Source: a virus
IMG/VR virus record: IMGVR_UViG_3300042891_002337
Span: 1 to 64,000 of that record
Reading direction: 5' to 3' (one strand)
Length of the DNA: 64,000 nucleotides
Part shown: positions 2,902 through 41,434 of the stretch, piece after piece
Layout: each line of letters opens with the position of its first letter
How positions within the stretch are numbered: the stretch's first letter is position 1
Translations under genes and position numbers: made by a program
The notes under the pieces: generated by a model
What the model was told of the DNA's origin: nothing
What the model saw: only the letters and a program-made list of their open reading frames with translations
Databases searched by the model: none

Positions 2902-3201
2902 TCAGACCGGCTTCTTGATCCCATAGTGTTCTGCAAGCATAGAAAGGACAGCGTCCTGAAACCGAGGGTCGGACGCAGTCTTCATGGACTCACGGTCAAG
3001 GTCCTCACCCTTCATACCGTGAAGCTCACACATCGGACGAGCCAGTTTGTGGAGGCCGCGCAGGAGGATGTTCCGTGCCGTCGCATGGTTCATCTTGTCA
3101 CCATCGGCACTCATGATGTCCGCGATCTCACGGAAACCGAGGCCGCCATCAGAACCGACAGTGGCATATCCGTGCTGGGACTTGTGACCCTTGGGCATCA
3201 T
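2902..3201 (-). CDS. Sigma region 4.2-like HTH protein (second half of a split sigma factor)
   Basis: 99 residues. The segment GFREIADIMS...HATARNILLRGLHKLAR fits the sigma-70 region 4.2 pattern (TLEEIGxxxGVSxxRVRQIExxALxKLR), including the final L-x-K-L-R. It starts at the ATG at 3201, overlapping the stop of the sigma gene (TGATG), with AGGAGG 6 bases upstream inside that gene. The upstream protein ends in region 4.1 and lacks this helix-turn-helix, so the two probably act together, much as T4 gp55 and gp33 divide late sigma function. It could instead be an independent HTH regulator. Confidence 0.6.
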   Translation of the reverse strand: MMPKGHKSQHGYATVGSDGGLGFREIADIMSADGDKMNHATARNILLRGLHKLARPMCELHGMKGEDLDRESMKTASDPRFQDAVLSMLAEHYGIKKPV

Positions 3202-3971
3202 CAAACACCTCCTGCGCGGGCATCCAGCTCCGCAAGTTCAGACTCAGTGATGGGGAAGTTGACATGGTCGGTGGGGTCTTCAGCGAGGCCGAACCGAAGT
3301 CGAATGACCTTTTCCTCGCGTGGAGTGAGGGTTGCCATCGCCTTGCGGAGGATCTCGGCAATACGTTCACGGTCGATCGACTCACCGGGGTCGGCGGCGT
3401 TCTCGTCCGGAATCACATCGCTGAGGCGTGGACCGTCGGGATCCCCAGGGGATGCACTCTGGTCCAGGGACATTGTTCCACGGTAGGTGTTCATGAGGGA
3501 CTGGTAGGTGTTGAGGGACACCCCCATGAACTCAGCCACCTCGTTGTCATTCGGAGGGGAGCCAAACTCCGTGGTGTAATCACGGATCATCATCTTGGCT
3601 CGGTAGTAGAACGCATTGGCCGAGGCCGGCATCCGAATGTTGGAGGACTGTTCAGTCACGTGGCTTGCCACAGCCTGTCGAATCCACCAAGATGCGTACG
3701 TGGAGAACTTGAATCCACGACGCCAGTCGAATCGATCCACCGCCTTGATGAGACCGACGTTGGACTCCTGAATCAGGTCCTCGAAAGCGGCGCCCTTGTT
3801 CATGTAGCGCTTGGCGATCGAGATGGCCAGTCGGAGGTTCGACGCGATCATAAGGTCTCGAGCTCGCTTGTCACCGGCCTCGATTGCTTGTGCCAGTCGG
3901 GCCTCGTCCTCACGGGTGAGAAGAGTGTACTTACCTACGTCCTTGAAGAATCCAGTCAGCATGTCCGCCAT
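3201..3971 (-). CDS. Sigma-70 family factor truncated after region 4.1
   Basis: 256 residues from the ATG at 3971 (GGAA upstream; the longer frame to 4013 adds an unrelated leader). Region 2 is clear: NLRLAISIAKRYMNKG, EDLIQESNVGLIKAVDRFDW, FSTYASWWIRQAV. Region 3 follows (EVAEFMGVS...), then region 4.1 (LTPREEKVIRLRFGL). Where region 4.2 should follow there are about 26 unrelated residues (ending LDARAGGV) and a stop. The missing helix-turn-helix is in the next gene. It presumably directs host RNA polymerase to phage promoters. Confidence 0.88.
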   Translation of the reverse strand: MADMLTGFFKDVGKYTLLTREDEARLAQAIEAGDKRARDLMIASNLRLAISIAKRYMNKGAAFEDLIQESNVGLIKAVDRFDWRRGFKFSTYASWWIRQAVASHVTEQSSNIRMPASANAFYYRAKMMIRDYTTEFGSPPNDNEVAEFMGVSLNTYQSLMNTYRGTMSLDQSASPGDPDGPRLSDVIPDENAADPGESIDRERIAEILRKAMATLTPREEKVIRLRFGLAEDPTDHVNFPITESELAELDARAGGV

Positions 3972-4317: not shown

Positions 4318-6092
<1,775 letters not shown>

Positions 6093-6105: not shown

Positions 6106-6903
6106 TTATTGTACTTCACGGAACGTGTTGGTGAACTTGTTCCACGACTTATCATTTGCGATGGACCAGAATCCGCGACTAATGAATGCGGTCCTGACCT
6201 GTTCCCACTGATTGGACGGATACTTTGCCTCGAGCTCGTCCTCAATGGGAAGGAACGAGATGAGGAATCGATTGCGCTCGAAGATCTGCCGATTGTCACC
6301 CTCACTCAGGAAGGCGTCGAGCTTTGTAGGATTGCTGAGCAGCTTCTCTGCAGTCTTTCCACCGATGCCCTTGAATCCTGGGATGCCATCTGAACCGTCA
6401 CCGGTGAGGGACTTCCACATCACATAGTCGTATGCAACCGGCTCGATCCAAACCTTTCGAATCGGGTTCCAGAGGCGAACACGATCATTACCTGGTGTGA
6501 GGAGCTGAATGAAGTCTGTGTCCGATGAAACCACAACACAGGGATCCTCACTGTGAACGTTCCTCACAAGGTGAGCGATAGTGTCATCACACTCACGGTG
6601 TGGGTGGCGGACGATATGGACAGGCATCATTCCAAGGATTTCGACAATGTCGCTGTGTTGGCGCCAGAAGTCGTCTCCTGGTGAGGTTCGACCTGCCTTG
6701 TATTCAGCGAATGCGTCCTTGCGTTCCTGCGGACGACCTTCCTTTACGATGTAGACTCGACTCGGATCGAAAGTCTCCACGGTCTTACGAAACATCGTGA
6801 AGAACGTGTAGGTGATGGTGTTCTCACCCTTGTCTCCACTGAAACCTGCTCGGGCTCGATGGACCATGTTGTTGAAGTCGATGACCAGGATGGGCTTAGA
6901 CAT
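6106..6903 (-). CDS. FEN/RNase H-like 5'-3' nuclease
   Basis: 265 residues. Flap-endonuclease family: N-terminal aspartate in VIDFNN, ECDDTIAHL, SSDTDF, and the helix-3-turn-helix segment GDGSDGIPGFKGIGGKTAEKL that binds DNA with a potassium ion. These nucleases remove RNA primers and flaps (T4 RNase H, T5 exonuclease, PolA N-domain). A second FEN protein is encoded at 40481-41434, so roles are probably split. The ATG is preceded by AGGAG. Confidence 0.9.
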   Translation of the reverse strand: MSKPILVIDFNNMVHRARAGFSGDKGENTITYTFFTMFRKTVETFDPSRVYIVKEGRPQERKDAFAEYKAGRTSPGDDFWRQHSDIVEILGMMPVHIVRHPHRECDDTIAHLVRNVHSEDPCVVVSSDTDFIQLLTPGNDRVRLWNPIRKVWIEPVAYDYVMWKSLTGDGSDGIPGFKGIGGKTAEKLLSNPTKLDAFLSEGDNRQIFERNRFLISFLPIEDELEAKYPSNQWEQVRTAFISRGFWSIANDKSWNKFTNTFREVQ

Positions 6904-19796: not shown

Positions 19797-22700
19797 CTAG
19801 CAATCCAAGTACTTCATCTTTCCGATGTTGGTTGAGATGCCCCAGTTCACCTCATGGTTGACGTTGGCCATCCAGATGGAGTAGGGTACCAGCTTATCAT
19901 TTGAATCTCCCCACACTCGTATCCAGCTGGTCTTTAGAGAGGAGTCTACAACCTTGAGCCGAAGGAAAGTCTTGCCTGTCTTTGTGGACTTCTTTTCGAT
20001 GTGAATCACACAGAACCATGCAATGTCAGAGTTTCCAGGCTCGATCTCTGAGATTGCAGGAATCTCAACCTTTCGAATCTTGCCCATAATCTCTTCGGGG
20101 AACATGATGTGGTGAGGAGCGGCACCTGAGATTTCGGCCTGAAGGGCAACCTTCTCGGTTCGTGTCCAATCCTCGATGCACTGTGTGGATTCGATGAGGG
20201 TCTCAATCACAGGTGGAGCATTGGTCTTTGCTGCCTTCTTGGCACTCATCCCCCATCGTCCCTTGCGCAGGACTCCGTAATTTCCAATGATGATCTCATG
20301 GAGCTGCTTGTGGTTGTTGACCTTGCCGGACTTGAACTCTTCAAGTGAGGTGAATGCCTCCATTCCAAGAAGGGCCTCGAAGCATCGACGGTTGAGCTTT
20401 GAGTGCTTCCAATTTCCTTCCTCATCGAAGAGGAGCTCATCCATGTTTCGGTATGGTCGATTCTCAATGATCTCATCGACTGCCGAATCACCGACACCCT
20501 TCAAGGAGGAGAGAGGTGGGACGAAAGAATCAAGCTCATCTGACCATGACCACTCCTCAGAAGAAGAGTTGATGTCAGGTGGTGAGATCTTGTAGCCCTG
20601 CTGCTTGATCTCGGACATCACCACAGCGAGGCCTTCAACATTTCGATTCTCAGTCTGAAGGCAGGTGGCAAGCCAATCCTTCTCATAGTATGTCATGAGC
20701 CAAGCACCATAGTAGGAGTCGATGGCATATGCAACAGAGTGGGACTTGTTGAAACCGTAAAGTGAGAAGAATGCGATTGTCTCAAAGAGGTCTGTGGCCT
20801 GCTTCTTTGAAAGACCGGACTTTTCAATACATCCGCTGATGAACTTCTTTTCCAGGGCCTCCTTCTCATCGGACTTCTTGCCAAGGGATGTGAGGTCCTT
20901 CTTCACCAGGGTCTTTCGCATCTTGTCAGAGTCACCAGGTGAGAATCCGGCAAGCTTCTGTGCCAGCAACATGAACTGTTCCTGGAAGACGATGAACCCG
21001 CATGTTGGGCCGAGGATCTCCTCGATGACCGGATGGTCGTACTTGATTGCGGCTCGATTCTTCTTGGCCTCGACGTACTTCTTGTGGACGTCGGCCTTCA
21101 GGGGACCAGGACGATAGATTGCCGTGATGGTGGAGAGGTCCACAATGTTCTCAGGTTGAGCTGAAATACAGAACCTCCGTGCGCCATCCGATGTGAACTG
21201 GAAGATGCCTGGCCACCGACCTGCCTGGTAGACGAACTTGAACACCTCAGGATCGTTGGGATCGACATATCGACAGTTCAGCTTATCGTCATAGAACTTC
21301 TTGACTTCCTTGAAGGTGGGCTCCTTTCCGGTCTCACGACGGAGGATTCGACGGATACAGTCCTCAACCATCTGCATTTGCTTCAGGCCAAGGAAGTCGA
21401 ACTTTAGGAAGCCGTTCTCCTCCAGGTTTCGAATGTTGACGCCTTCAGTCCATGGTGTCTGTAGTTCACCGCGAACTGTGATGAGTGGCATGTGCTTCTC
21501 AAGCTCAGGACAGACAAGGACGCCACCGGCATGACGACCAATGGATCGATTCATCATGAAGAGGGCTCGGACCTTGTCCTCGACCTGAGGGTACTTCTCC
21601 ATGAACTCACGGTACCTGGGAGAGTGCTCGAGGCAATCCTCATGCTTGAGGACGAACATGGACTTCTCCATGTTAGGATCTCGGGACTTCTCTGCAACCT
21701 CACGTTCGAGGGGACCTGTGACGGCATTCACCTCATCGAAAGGAATGCCATAGAACTTTGATACGTCCTTCACCAGGGACTTGAGCTTGAGGGTATTGAA
21801 GTTGGAGACTGGGACAACCGATTCCTCACCGAAGATCTCACGTGCTGCATCGATAAGAGCATCACGGTTTCCGACGTCAGTGTCGATGTCAGGCCAACCT
21901 GCACGGTGACGACCAAGGAATCGTTCCCAGAGGAGGTCATATCGCATTGGGTCGACGTGAGTGATTCCAAGGAGGTAGTTGACGAGGGAACCTGCGCCGG
22001 AACCACGACCGGCACCTGGAAGAGTCCGGTTCTCGGCAACCTTGAACACCTTCTGAAGTGTGAGGAAGTAGTTCTCGAAGCCAAGGTGCTTGATGTCACC
22101 AAGCTCGAACTTGGCACGTTCGACGTATTCCTTGTTGGTTGCAAGACCCTCATCAATAAGGGCAGTCTTCACAAGGCTGGTGAGTTGGCTCATTGCAGTG
22201 CTTTCAGATGTGGAGAACGAAGGAAGCTTTGCAGTGTCCTCGAACCAGATCTCCTCACACATCTGCCACGCAATGTCATGTCCACGTTCGATGGAGGAAC
22301 GAACCACATCTTCAGTCCCCTCATAGAACTTGAACTCCTTTCGTCGGAGGAGGTACTCTTCCCACATCTGGTCGGCATTCTTGGGGAAGAGTTCAGCCTT
22401 GATCTGGTCCTTCGTAGGAAGTGGCTTCGGCTCCTCACCAATCTTCATTCGACCAGGCTGAAGCTGGCGATAGATCTCACGGGCTTCCCAAAGGTCAGGA
22501 CCAGGGTAGTGAGCGTCAGAAGTGGTAAGGAGGGGAATTCCTGTTCGCTGGGACAGGTCAATCATGCACCGGTTCGTGAGGTCCTGTGCGCCGAGTCGAT
22601 TGAACTGGATCTCGAGGAAGAAGTTGTCTCGTCCAACACAGTCGGTGAATCGATCTACCATGTTCTGAAGTCGATTGTTGATTCGGTTTCGAACGGTCTC

Positions 22701-23336
22701 ATCATCAACAAGTCGAGGATCGAGCTGGTCAAACTTGAGGTCTGGGAACTCACGGTAGATAATGCCGGACGGATAGCCGCCGACGCATGCTGTGGAGACC
22801 ACCAGGCCTTCACCATGTTCCTTGAGCATGTTGAAGTCGATTCGTGGGAACTTGTAGAACCCGTCCTTGAAGGACTTCTTGACCAGAGTGAAGAGGTTGG
22901 AGAGGCCGACTCGATTCTTGGCAACCACGACAAGGTGGTACCGTCGACTGATGTTGTCGATCTGCTCGGTTCGAGTGTCGTCGGCATCCTCGACAACAAG
23001 GCCAGCCTCTTCCTCATCGTTCTCGGAGGTGCTGTCCTCTGCCGAGATACCCTTCGAAAGGTCGTAGGCCTTCTTCCATTCCTTCAGGTCGGGGACAAAG
23101 TAGAACTCCACACCGTAGAGTTGGCGGAACTTTGCACCCTTGCCCTTCAGCTTCTTGGCATGCGCGTGTGCATGAGCAAGTCCATTGCCATTTCCATGGT
23201 CTGTCAGTGACCAGGAATCGAGGCCATTCTTCAGGCAGAAGTCGATGTGCTCACGAGGTTCGGAGAGTCCATCGAAAGGAGAGAACGTCGAGTGGTTGTG
23301 GATGGAGGCGTAACGATTTGGGGGTAAAAGAATCAT
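19797..23336 (-). CDS. dnaE: DNA polymerase III alpha subunit (family C)
   Basis: 1179 residues, close to bacterial DnaE length. N-terminal PHP domain (IHNHSTFS, TDHGNGNG), palm with catalytic aspartates in PDIDTD (about residue 480) and KFDFLGL, the fingers (IYRPGPLKAD), the GAGRGSGAGSLVNYLLG motif, an HhH segment (LKGVGDSAVDEI) and a C-terminal OB-like domain (FCVIHIEKKSTKTGKTFLRL). It is the likely replicative polymerase, replacing T4 gp43-type polymerase. No clamp or loader is in the window. Translation is probably controlled by a 16-bp hairpin covering its Shine-Dalgarno and ATG (23334-23397). Confidence 0.95.
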   Translation of the reverse strand: MILLPPNRYASIHNHSTFSPFDGLSEPREHIDFCLKNGLDSWSLTDHGNGNGLAHAHAHAKKLKGKGAKFRQLYGVEFYFVPDLKEWKKAYDLSKGISAEDSTSENDEEEAGLVVEDADDTRTEQIDNISRRYHLVVVAKNRVGLSNLFTLVKKSFKDGFYKFPRIDFNMLKEHGEGLVVSTACVGGYPSGIIYREFPDLKFDQLDPRLVDDETVRNRINNRLQNMVDRFTDCVGRDNFFLEIQFNRLGAQDLTNRCMIDLSQRTGIPLLTTSDAHYPGPDLWEAREIYRQLQPGRMKIGEEPKPLPTKDQIKAELFPKNADQMWEEYLLRRKEFKFYEGTEDVVRSSIERGHDIAWQMCEEIWFEDTAKLPSFSTSESTAMSQLTSLVKTALIDEGLATNKEYVERAKFELGDIKHLGFENYFLTLQKVFKVAENRTLPGAGRGSGAGSLVNYLLGITHVDPMRYDLLWERFLGRHRAGWPDIDTDVGNRDALIDAAREIFGEESVVPVSNFNTLKLKSLVKDVSKFYGIPFDEVNAVTGPLEREVAEKSRDPNMEKSMFVLKHEDCLEHSPRYREFMEKYPQVEDKVRALFMMNRSIGRHAGGVLVCPELEKHMPLITVRGELQTPWTEGVNIRNLEENGFLKFDFLGLKQMQMVEDCIRRILRRETGKEPTFKEVKKFYDDKLNCRYVDPNDPEVFKFVYQAGRWPGIFQFTSDGARRFCISAQPENIVDLSTITAIYRPGPLKADVHKKYVEAKKNRAAIKYDHPVIEEILGPTCGFIVFQEQFMLLAQKLAGFSPGDSDKMRKTLVKKDLTSLGKKSDEKEALEKKFISGCIEKSGLSKKQATDLFETIAFFSLYGFNKSHSVAYAIDSYYGAWLMTYYEKDWLATCLQTENRNVEGLAVVMSEIKQQGYKISPPDINSSSEEWSWSDELDSFVPPLSSLKGVGDSAVDEIIENRPYRNMDELLFDEEGNWKHSKLNRRCFEALLGMEAFTSLEEFKSGKVNNHKQLHEIIIGNYGVLRKGRWGMSAKKAAKTNAPPVIETLIESTQCIEDWTRTEKVALQAEISGAAPHHIMFPEEIMGKIRKVEIPAISEIEPGNSDIAWFCVIHIEKKSTKTGKTFLRLKVVDSSLKTSWIRVWGDSNDKLVPYSIWMANVNHEVNWGISTNIGKMKYLDC

Positions 23337-29554: not shown

Positions 29555-30505
29555 CTAATATGTCTTCGACAGCCATACGGTGTCGCCAACAGATGCAACA
29601 GAGTGAGAAAATCCCCAATAGACGACTTCACCACCTGATGATATTGTCGAAAGGAAAGTCGAAGTTGGCCCATCATAGATGCCAGCCAAATTTCCCACAG
29701 TGTAAAATGGCGTATCATTCCTTGCCATCGCGATTGGAACAGGTGCATACTTGCTTGCGTCCCACTTACCGAAACCAGAAGTGTTTGTTGGTGTCTTAGA
29801 AGGTGTGCAGAAGGTGTCGATCTTCTCCCAAGTTGAAGATCCTGATACATACGCCCCTGCATGAAAGTCACCATTGTTCTCATTATGATTCAAAAAGTAT
29901 TGATTCATTCTGAAGTTGGCATTCATGGCAAACTGCCACGACTGATTGATAATTCCATATCGATAGCCGTCAGACTCAAAGTATTGACCAGTCCCATTCA
30001 GCACAGCACCTGCAATCATTGATCTTTGATTTGCATTTGATGAACCTTCAATCATTGCTGCAAAACCTTTGTCAGATGCCCAGGCATGGATTTTTGTTGA
30101 GTTTGTTGCAGATGTTGTGCTCCAGGCAGTGAGACCTGCAAAGCCCGCTGATTGAAATGGAGACGAAGCATACCAGTTTGTGTATGCACCATCAGCGTTT
30201 GTAGCAAGGCCAACAAGCACTCTTGTCGCAGAATAAGTGTCTGGCGCCAACATTGTAGGACTTGGGCTCGGAGTTCCTGAGTCCTGTGATGCAACTACAA
30301 GCCTGAAGTTTCTGGGCCCAAATGTGTTCGAATAGATTGCCTGTGATCCTGTAGTGGAATCTTTCGTCCAGGACAGAACTGTGTTCGGAACAGCGTTCCC
30401 GTAGTAATCGGTTCCTGCTGACAGAAGATTGTACAGGGCCGTTATGAAACCGTTGTTATCCGGAGGAGTGACATTCGCAGATCCCATGTAGTAACGGGTT
30501 GGCAT
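29555..30505 (-). CDS. Distal tail fibre / receptor-binding protein
   Basis: 316 residues from the ATG at 30505, overlapping the stop of the upstream fibre gene (TAATG); a frame reaching 30601 is a shadow inside that gene. Rich in S, T, N, G, A and aromatics (RYYMGSANVTPP, GPRNFRLVVASQDSG), lacking charged helices, as in receptor-binding tips. The overlap with the proximal fibre gene supports joint production of a two-part fibre. Confidence 0.68.
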   Translation of the reverse strand: MPTRYYMGSANVTPPDNNGFITALYNLLSAGTDYYGNAVPNTVLSWTKDSTTGSQAIYSNTFGPRNFRLVVASQDSGTPSPSPTMLAPDTYSATRVLVGLATNADGAYTNWYASSPFQSAGFAGLTAWSTTSATNSTKIHAWASDKGFAAMIEGSSNANQRSMIAGAVLNGTGQYFESDGYRYGIINQSWQFAMNANFRMNQYFLNHNENNGDFHAGAYVSGSSTWEKIDTFCTPSKTPTNTSGFGKWDASKYAPVPIAMARNDTPFYTVGNLAGIYDGPTSTFLSTISSGGEVVYWGFSHSVASVGDTVWLSKTY

Positions 30506-31797
30506 TAGACTATCTCGATGGTTGAAGATACGACTGACTGTTCGGAGTGAGCAACGTCGACAGTCATTGGGGTCACAGCAATAGCAGCGCCGAATACCCA
30601 CGCAAGGGAATTATTTTGCCATCCGAGAACTCTACCGTCACGATAGCCAGATGTCGGTGGCTCAACACCAGCAAATGAACCTGCGTTATTGTACTGAACA
30701 GAGTTCGTGGAGCCTGCGGGAGAACCGCCGCCGGTCGATGAGATCGTCACAGCTCCGTTCGAACCAGTTACTACATTTACATTCGTGCCAGCAATAATGT
30801 ACGAAGTACCGTCCGAGAGCTTTGTAAGTGAACCTGACATCTTAGTGACGGTGATGCTTCCGCCTGTGATGGACACATTGTTTGAGTTCTGTGTTGATAG
30901 AGTTCCGAGGCCAAGGTTGGTTCGAGCAGTCGAAGCATCAGAAGCCCCTGTACCACCGTCTGCAACTGCAAGATCTGTGATTCCTGTTACAGATCCACCT
31001 GTGATAGAAACATTTGAGGCTGCCTGTGTGGCAATTGTTCCTAATCCCAGGTTAGACCTCGCTGTTGTAGCGTCTGAAGCGCCTGTTCCTCCATCTGCGA
31101 TAGCGAGGTCTGTGATTCCTGTGATTGAACCACCTGTGATTGTGACGCTGTTTGATGCCTGTGTAGAGATTGTGCCCAGTCCAAGATTAGACCTTGCGGT
31201 TGCAGCATCTGAGGCGCCTGTCCCACCATCAGCAACAGCAAGATCTGTTATGCCTGCAATGGAGCCGCCTGTTATAGAAACGCTGTTCGACGCCTGTGTG
31301 GCAATTGTTCCGAGACCCAGGTTGGTCCTTGCGGTTGCAGCATCTGTGGCGCCTGTACCGCCATTAGAAACAGCAACAGGTGAAGACAGAGAAATTGTGA
31401 CTGAGCTTCCTGCTCCTCCGTCACTTATTGTAATCCCTGTCCCCTGAGTCAGGACCCTTTCCTGTGTTAATGTTGCGTCAGTCGCAAGGGTTACGTACCT
31501 TGCAGTAGTGGGTGCACCGCCACCGCCTCCACCTCCACCCACAGAATATGCATTCCCCTCGGCATCGTAGATTGTGCCTGAAACCGTCAGGTTACCCTTT
31601 ATGATGCTGCTTCCTGAAGCAACCAAGCTTCCGGATACAAAAGCATTCCCAGTGATGTTGATGCTGGATGTCTTAAAACCAGATATGCCCACATACAGGT
31701 CATGTGGGCCAACAACTCGAAGTATTTCCCTGCTTCTGTCGTCTGAGACTGGTATGAAAGACTCAGTCAGGGCAGTTCTAGCGTCTATGCTGCCCAT
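30505..31797 (-). CDS. Tail fibre protein with 45-residue repeats
   Basis: 430 residues. An N-terminal attachment part (ILRVVGPHDLYVGISG) is followed by small repeats, a run of eight glycines near residue 87 that looks like a hinge, then about four 45-residue repeats (GGTGA-DA-TAR-NLGLGTI...NSVSITGGSITGITDLAVA), typical of trimeric beta-helical fibre shafts. The C-terminal portion (GSPAGSTNSVQYNNAG) is common in phage fibres. No Shine-Dalgarno is obvious. Confidence 0.85.
   Translation of the reverse strand: MGSIDARTALTESFIPVSDDRSREILRVVGPHDLYVGISGFKTSSINITGNAFVSGSLVASGSSIIKGNLTVSGTIYDAEGNAYSVGGGGGGGGAPTTARYVTLATDATLTQERVLTQGTGITISDGGAGSSVTISLSSPVAVSNGGTGATDAATARTNLGLGTIATQASNSVSITGGSIAGITDLAVADGGTGASDAATARSNLGLGTISTQASNSVTITGGSITGITDLAIADGGTGASDATTARSNLGLGTIATQAASNVSITGGSVTGITDLAVADGGTGASDASTARTNLGLGTLSTQNSNNVSITGGSITVTKMSGSLTKLSDGTSYIIAGTNVNVVTGSNGAVTISSTGGGSPAGSTNSVQYNNAGSFAGVEPPTSGYRDGRVLGWQNNSLAWVFGAAIAVTPMTVDVAHSEQSVVSSTIEIV
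30844..31365 (-). repeat. Tandem 135-bp fibre shaft repeats
   Basis: Three full and one nearly full in-frame copies of a 45-codon (135-bp) unit start at residues 145, 190, 235 and 280 of the fibre protein. Copies differ at many third positions, so they are old or kept apart by selection. Confidence 0.8.
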
Positions 31798-40480: not shown

Positions 40481-41434
40481 TCAATTCCTGAGATTGAGGG
40501 TGATGGTCAAATAAAATCTGTCGACATCAAATGTTTTGATCCCATGCTTCACAAGTTGTCTAATGAGACCCATCTTGTCGGGATTCGAAATGGGAATATC
40601 AAATGACGTGTTTATCTTCTGGACTTGGCTTGCACTGAGGTTGGAAACGTCCAGGCTCATGAGCTGCCAGTTTCTTCGTGCGACCTCTTTGTTCTCCATG
40701 ATCGACTTCAGGGCCTTGATTCGATCGATTTTGGGGTGGGTCTCGCACAATTCAATTATGTCTTCAACTGAGAGTTCATCCTCACCGGCAAGCTTCGGGA
40801 ACATGTTGACCATTGTCCGCAGGCCGACGCCTGGGATACCCGGAAGTGCGTCAGATGCATCTCCTGTGAAGCAGCGGGTAACACAAAGATTGTGAGGTGG
40901 GACACCAAATTTCTTTTGGACGAAGTCACAGTTCACAATCTCCTTGAGAGTGGGTGACCAGACCTGGACACGATCATCCACGAGTTGGAGGTAGTCATGG
41001 TCGGAAGAAACGATAAGGATGTTCCTATCCTTGAAATGGTACCTCGCCATATAGCCGATTACATCGTCTGCCTCGCAATCCGACACATAGGTCTGCCTGA
41101 TTGGAAGGAACTTCAACAATGAGACCAGGAGCTTCACCTGCCAGTTTCGGTTCTCAACCGTATCAGGAATGTCCCCCTCGTGGAACCTGTTTAGCTTCTG
41201 AGGTCTTCGGTTGTCCTTGTATTGGGGAAATATGGCCCGTCTACGTGATGATCCCCCACCTTCCCAGATTACAACGAGCGACGACGGCCTGTGATCCGCC
41301 ACCAGGGCACCGATGGACTTCATGAATCCAACGACGCCTCCGACGTGTTGCCCCTCCTCCATGAGTGGATTGGCAACGAAGTTGCGCACAAACAGGTTGT
41401 ACGCATCTACCAACATCACAGGACCGTCCTTCAC
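40481..41434 (-). CDS. FEN/5'-3' exonuclease (second copy)
   Basis: 317 residues from a GTG at 41434 (an ATG at 41416 is possible). Metal and DNA-binding motifs: LVDAYNLF, DCEADDVIGYMA, SSDHDYLQL, and H3TH GDASDALPGIPGVGLRTM. Probably removes RNA primers at the fork, given its place between helicase and UvsX. It is only distantly similar to the FEN at 6106-6903. Confidence 0.9.
   Translation of the reverse strand: MKDGPVMLVDAYNLFVRNFVANPLMEEGQHVGGVVGFMKSIGALVADHRPSSLVVIWEGGGSSRRRAIFPQYKDNRRPQKLNRFHEGDIPDTVENRNWQVKLLVSLLKFLPIRQTYVSDCEADDVIGYMARYHFKDRNILIVSSDHDYLQLVDDRVQVWSPTLKEIVNCDFVQKKFGVPPHNLCVTRCFTGDASDALPGIPGVGLRTMVNMFPKLAGEDELSVEDIIELCETHPKIDRIKALKSIMENKEVARRNWQLMSLDVSNLSASQVQKINTSFDIPISNPDKMGLIRQLVKHGIKTFDVDRFYLTITLNLRN

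Follow-up and report, generated by a model that had tools for sequence, protein, structure and literature searches.

A housekeeping-type sigma factor cut within domain 4 in uncultured large phages, with two candidate partners for promoter recognition

Sigma factors usually carry domain 4 as one folded unit, whose region 4.2 normally reads the −35 promoter element. The locus described here raises the question of how a housekeeping-type sigma that ends in the middle of this domain would recognize promoters, and of which protein, if any, could supply the missing half. It is found in a stretch of 64,000 nucleotides (the window; positions 1 to 64,000 of the IMG/VR record IMGVR_UViG_3300042891_002337), which is part of a 75,598-base contig of an uncultured virus with nearly all of its genes on the minus strand. 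PHROG matches on this contig include a sheath, a baseplate hub, a UvsX-like recombinase, a DnaB-like helicase and a GroEL, and the source is, judging from its genes, a contractile-tailed phage.

The sigma gene (ORF1) runs on the minus strand from an ATG at 3971 to a TGA at 3203-3201 (Table 1). Its regions 1.2, 2 and 3 each exceed the Pfam cut-offs, and the match to Sigma70_r4 is limited to the first 18 of its 50 positions, as in all the split relatives. The NCBIfam RpoD models align with ORF1 at an E value of 1e-64 up to about residue 236, and PHROG_351 is covered over columns 473-693 (of 928) and TIGR02393 over positions 1-194. From these profiles, ORF1 can be assigned to group 1/2 (RpoD-like) of the sigma70 family, with a domain 4 that is incomplete in the same polypeptide. 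A previous sequence-only reading of the locus had described a housekeeping-type sigma ending after region 4.1, and this is supported by the Pfam and NCBIfam matches. Its second claim, a translationally coupled next gene, also holds: the first base of ORF2 is the A of the ORF1 TGA, the start codon lies at 3201-3199 and the AGGAGG six nucleotides before it (a second ATG is found at 3198 and a TTG at 3204). The two reading frames differ in the window. Between the RLRFG motif of ORF1 and the first helix of ORF2 there would be about 55 residues, compared to about 10 in the RpoD counterpart, in good agreement with the "about 50 extra" previously estimated for a fusion. A phage GroEL gene (4318-5907) maps just upstream of the sigma gene, and the order GroEL, small ORF, sigma and ORF2 occurs in the related locus L022 as well.

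Table 1. Features of the split sigma locus (positions in the window)
Feature	Positions	Strand	Basis
ORF1, RpoD-like sigma, 256 aa, regions 1.2 to 4.1, without 4.2	3201..3971	-	translation, Pfam, NCBIfam, PHROG_351
Sigma region 1.2 of ORF1	3867..3950	-	PF00140, E 7.6e-9, residues 8-35
Sigma region 2 of ORF1 (−10 recognition, core binding)	3645..3851	-	PF04542, E 9.4e-22, residues 41-109
Sigma region 3 of ORF1	3381..3599	-	PF04539, E 1.2e-8, residues 125-197
Sigma region 4.1 of ORF1	3285..3356	-	PF04545 residues 211-229; PF08281 residues 206-227
Variable tail of ORF1 beyond RLRFG, 27 aa	3204..3284	-	alignment of relatives; sigma profiles silent past about residue 236
AGGAGG Shine-Dalgarno of ORF2, 6 nt before ATG	3208..3213	-	sequence; similar sites in most relatives
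TGATG, ORF1 stop overlapping ORF2 start	3199..3203	-	sequence
ORF2, 99 aa, predicted helix-turn-helix protein, always paired with ORF1	2902..3201	-	139 nonredundant pairs, AF2, dN/dS
Predicted helix-turn-helix of ORF2, helices 23-32 and 39-60, invariant H39, R43, N44	3022..3135	-	AF2, 68-row alignment

Relatives of the locus were retrieved in three independent ways (an ORF1 query, an ORF2 alignment and an ORF1 alignment) among contigs that are all environmental and for none of which completeness is established. All the close relatives obtained with the ORF1 query showed the two-gene arrangement. The ORF2 alignment led to 80 loci, each with a separate upstream sigma gene and none with a one-ORF version, and the best 80 loci retrieved with the ORF1 alignment were split without exception (80/80), a count that is an unbiased test because ORF2 had no role in choosing the loci. 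Conservation in relatives was the check proposed with the sequence-only reading, and an uninterrupted version is present in no close relative. The nonredundant set contains 139 ORF1/ORF2 pairs from uncultured large-phage contigs, every one of them split, and no fused ORF1-ORF2 gene was found among the relatives retrieved. A scan from a divergent branch added further split loci, with identity falling to about 43%, past which intact RpoD-like sigmas appear, many of bacterial type. In a tree that includes 83 intact sigmas, the 138 split ones all fall on one side of a single branch, whose support is moderate (SH-aLRT 78), and the split/intact label changes once, compared to 67 times in shuffles. 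The best-matching sigmas of cultured phages (MaAM05, Vibrio 2.275.O and S-CBS3) align with ORF1 over regions 1.2-4.1 and differ from it in an intact 4.2 within the single gene; the bacterial relatives are intact too.

Both ORF1 and ORF2 are under purifying selection (median dN/dS of 0.15 and 0.12, respectively), and their distance matrices are correlated (Mantel r 0.85). A sequencing error or a decayed gene would have to account for an identical break across many samples and 139 nonredundant pairs, as well as for the purifying selection on both parts, and next to no weight can be given to it, which sustains the earlier opinion that the split is not a simple frameshift. The distance between the two genes does vary. 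Starts were checked for 68 pairs: the genes overlap in 27 of them, lie 0-35 nt apart in 26 and are more than 150 nt apart in 15. ORF2 always follows ORF1 directly in the marine branch, and lies within about 1 kb of it in the freshwater branch, where one to three small membrane-protein ORFs separate both genes. Those of loci L193-L241 encode about 45-150 aa, several with a R..FQ..RF..PI motif. In a soil-type relative (L246:1882-3034), the ORF1 frame extends out of frame across most of ORF2 in a long overlap. Some loci (L006 and L007) carry ORF1 and ORF2 in a common frame with a stop codon between them; stop-codon read-through was considered as a general mechanism and rejected, since most relatives have the two ORFs out of frame.

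What ORF2 is can be approached through its fold. The AlphaFold2 model obtained from a 68-row alignment (pLDDT 84) predicts a helix at 23-32, a turn, a long helix at 39-60 and two more helices. The sequence-only reading had seen here a region 4.2-like helix-turn-helix; the model makes a helix-turn-helix plausible, but a sequence homology to 4.2 was not detected. Searches of ORF2 against Pfam, PHROGs and PDB profiles gave only sub-threshold matches, and no sigma emerged from Pfam or PDB beyond the sub-threshold matches to Sigma70_r4_2 of 4 of the 68 family members. Against 4.2 models from 84 intact sigmas, the 139 ORF2 proteins scored near shuffled sequences; profile-profile and profile-sequence tests with the same 84 sigmas gave nothing significant, and the sole alignment to an intact-sigma 4.2 is weak and falls at the recognition helix. 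When ORF1 and ORF2 were joined and compared to the full sigma model, the alignment never went past ORF1. Fold searches in PDB and viral libraries yielded no significant match, the best short one, not strong, being a sigma54 RpoN domain. When L007 is modelled as a read-through product, it can be aligned in order with sigmaA/sigma70 as far as the end of the ORF2 helix-turn-helix (about residue 320), but the rmsd is about 20 Å, so this model is informative on order alone. The candidate of ORF2 as a diverged region 4.2 was set aside, its sequence homology being undetectable with Pfam, PDB profiles and the 84-sigma tests, and the term 4.2-like would describe its position and predicted fold. No convincing match was found for ORF2 among the PHROGs of named function, no ORF2 among 50,697 phage records, and no ORF2-type protein among bacterial genomes in a single scan with a narrow motif. 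A direct coupling analysis of ORF1 and ORF2 had too little power with about 90 effective sequences, its top pairs being scattered and not clustered in 4.1.

A Sigma70_r4 search of 20 contigs placed ORF1 on the first part of the profile. In those of larger size it also found another small ORF, of 83-125 aa, whose product is here called protein B (83-108 aa). This protein matches positions ~18-50 of Sigma70_r4 (PF04545) over the cut-off, with E values down to 1e-10. The 13 examples (L351-L363, e.g. L358:1929-2201) share four invariant cysteines (13, 24, 29 and 41 in L358) and the canonical 4.2 helix-turn-helix sequence TLQEIGDIFGVTRMRICQIEK. Its PHROG_351 match (693-733) starts where that of ORF1 ends, its TIGR02393 match covers 191-225, following that of ORF1, and PDB chains of sigmaA/sigma70 region 4.2 are matched at E ~5e-7; RpoD corresponds to a fusion of 4.1 with a B-like 4.2. 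Such complementary profiles identify protein B as the actual homologue of the 4.2 absent from ORF1. The proposal that ORF2 carries region 4.2 is not supported, with ORF2 profile scores near those of shuffled sequences and the homologue encoded by an unlinked gene of larger relatives, which the earlier reading could not see, as neither the window nor its contig contains it. With respect to the 4.2 of sigma70 (TLEEVGKQFDVTRERIRQIEAK), protein B retains the T-R and Q-I-E positions, and shows RM instead of RE and ICQ instead of IRQ. Several of the compared positions in sigma70 contact the −35 element, so protein B could read a changed −35.

In the larger relatives, the gene of protein B is 40-270 kb distant from the sigma gene and adjoins a PhoH-type gene. 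Among 40 split-sigma contigs, B was found in 13 of the 15 of at least 200 kb (11/11 above 230 kb) and in 3 of the 25 shorter ones. PhoH was looked for in 26 contigs without B: it is wholly absent from 25, and the remaining one (G013) has only a PhoH cut off at the contig end, and therefore the neighbourhood of B falls outside those contigs. Neither B nor PhoH was found in the 75.6-kb contig of the window, whose genome is probably much larger. Its nearest large relative, G011 (257 kb, with an ORF1 68% identical), carries ORF1, ORF2 and B, and so does the large contig IMGVR_UViG_3300011113_000805. ORF1 and ORF2 were found in four of the five B contigs above 185 kb, and the divergence of B tracks those of ORF1 (r 0.70) and ORF2 (r 0.64; n=13). 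Given this presence in large contigs and the matching divergence, protein B belongs to the core genes of the lineage and is inherited vertically. A search of the 50,697 phage records gave one weak match to B.

The data show a split that is universal in the lineage, selection on ORF1 and ORF2, a B gene inherited along with them, and homologies of ORF1 and B that complement each other; the physical assembly of subunits, the reading of DNA and the switching of promoters are inferred. The preferred reading, to which about an even chance can be given, is that of a split sigma that receives its −35-reading half in trans from a separate subunit, for which B and ORF2 are the two candidates. ORF1 would provide core binding and −10 reading through regions 1.2, 2 and 3, plus the 4.1 helices, which would help to seat domain 4 on the beta flap. 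Small helix-turn-helix subunits would then dock on 4.1 and the beta flap, completing domain 4 in trans. Protein B, as the 4.2 homologue, would supply the −35 reading, and ORF2, encoded on the same message as ORF1, would be a dedicated second partner, which might read −35 as an alternative to B or act as a coactivator in the manner of gp33. Pieces made separately would allow the promoter class to be switched by exchange of the small subunit. A search of 20 contigs found no beta subunit of a phage RNA polymerase, and the host core RNA polymerase is therefore the likely target of ORF1. A motif search upstream of genes, in 18 gaps of the window, gave no convincing promoter word. More tentatively, and with the chances rather against it, the three genes could form a sigma with a common core (1.2-4.1) and exchangeable −35 readers, ORF2 or B, depending on promoter class or infection stage. 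If true, a whole lineage of large aquatic phages would have a modular specificity factor as a fixed trait.

Protein B could be an independent transcription factor merely sharing the 4.2 fold, and any standalone 4.2 domain would complement the profile range of ORF1, whatever its function. ORF1 and ORF2 alone could also make a two-subunit sigma, as proposed in the sequence-only reading, where a non-homologous or highly diverged helix-turn-helix replaced 4.2 and B is unrelated, perhaps a regulator of PhoH. The tight or close linkage in the marine and freshwater branches, the translational coupling of ORF2 in many relatives, a predicted short helix, turn and long second helix resembling those of 4.2, and the L007 alignment through the ORF2 helix-turn-helix all speak for this pair, which nevertheless seems unlikely when ORF2 has neither a 4.2 sequence signal nor a strong fold match, the read-through alignment has such a large rmsd and a fused gene occurs nowhere. 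It is also rather improbable that ORF1 needs no −35 recognition, being active at promoters of the extended −10 or T4-late-like type, with ORF2 as a gp33-like flap coactivator that reads no sequence and B as a separate factor. A precedent exists in T4, with a gp55 devoid of domain 4 and gp33 on the beta flap (PMC2988020, PMC7892883), and the flap is used by many unrelated proteins; however, ORF1 wholly keeps regions 1.2-4.1, unlike gp55, and the predicted DNA-binding helix of ORF2, with its invariant H, R and N, suggests DNA contact. A search for the T4 clamp family was silent, as was its control.

Membrane-protein genes intervene between ORF1 and ORF2 in the freshwater branch, and therefore adjacency alone is no proof of assembly. 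ORF2 could be no more than a neighbour in the operon, for instance a repressor or an anti-sigma-like regulator of ORF1, yet an obligate pairing down to ~40% identity, with matching divergence, and the fact that exactly one DNA-binding helix-turn-helix is missing from ORF1 make this very unlikely.

Compared with known systems, the proposed split sigma with a half supplied in trans resembles gp55 and gp33 of T4, already termed a split sigma (PMC2988020), and the parallel with them drawn in the sequence-only reading is apt as an analogy. The likeness would consist in a phage specificity factor made of separate polypeptides on the host RNA polymerase, with a small partner replacing domain 4 (PMC2988020, PMC7892883). 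However, gp55 is a region-2-like core only, and gp33 is structurally unrelated to sigma domain 4 (PMC7892883), lacks homology to sigma and reads no sequence, whereas ORF1 is an RpoD-like sigma that is nearly complete and breaks off after 4.1, the true 4.2 homologue being a separate gene. SigO-RsoA of Bacillus subtilis is a two-subunit sigma with domains on separate proteins whose cooperation is required (PMC8103513, PMC10028694; MacLellan 2009 cited therein). There the cut separates domain 2 from domain 4 in an alternative sigma, whereas the phage cut falls inside domain 4 of a group-1-like sigma with two helix-turn-helix candidates. Group 2 jumbo phages are described as having minimal sigma-like proteins with a single helix-turn-helix and gp33 orthologues beside RpoD-like sigmas, a type to which protein B may belong; an RpoD-like sigma without exactly 4.2, or a complementary pairing, is not described in the available part of that work (Iyer et al. 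2021, PMC7824862). In the literature searched, with subscription journals and preprints outside the search, no description was found of a sigma divided at the border of 4.1 and 4.2.

A conserved cut in the middle of domain 4 would imply that a housekeeping-type sigma can have a detachable subunit for −35 recognition, and offers a testable system for how much of this domain needs covalent joining. The arrangement could also be an intermediate that links RpoD-like sigmas to phage systems as reduced as gp55/gp33, as well as a marker and a transcription model for a large phage lineage with no cultured members in the collection searched. The split would explain why annotation names ORF1 an ordinary sigma and overlooks its partners.

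Some other genes of the window deserve a mention. Two adjacent proteins (895-1278 and 1306-1773) have a common N-terminal motif, LTESRLRQIIREE / LTESKLRQIIREE. Two genes (6106-6903 and 40481-41434) resemble 5′-3′ exonucleases/flap endonucleases, the first confirmed by PHROG and the second by eye only. A large DNA polymerase (19797-23336) resembling bacterial DnaE (pol III alpha) is present alongside the UvsX-like recombinase and the DnaB-like helicase, and a probable tail-fibre protein (30505-31797) contains GGTGASDAATARSNLGLGTI repeats.
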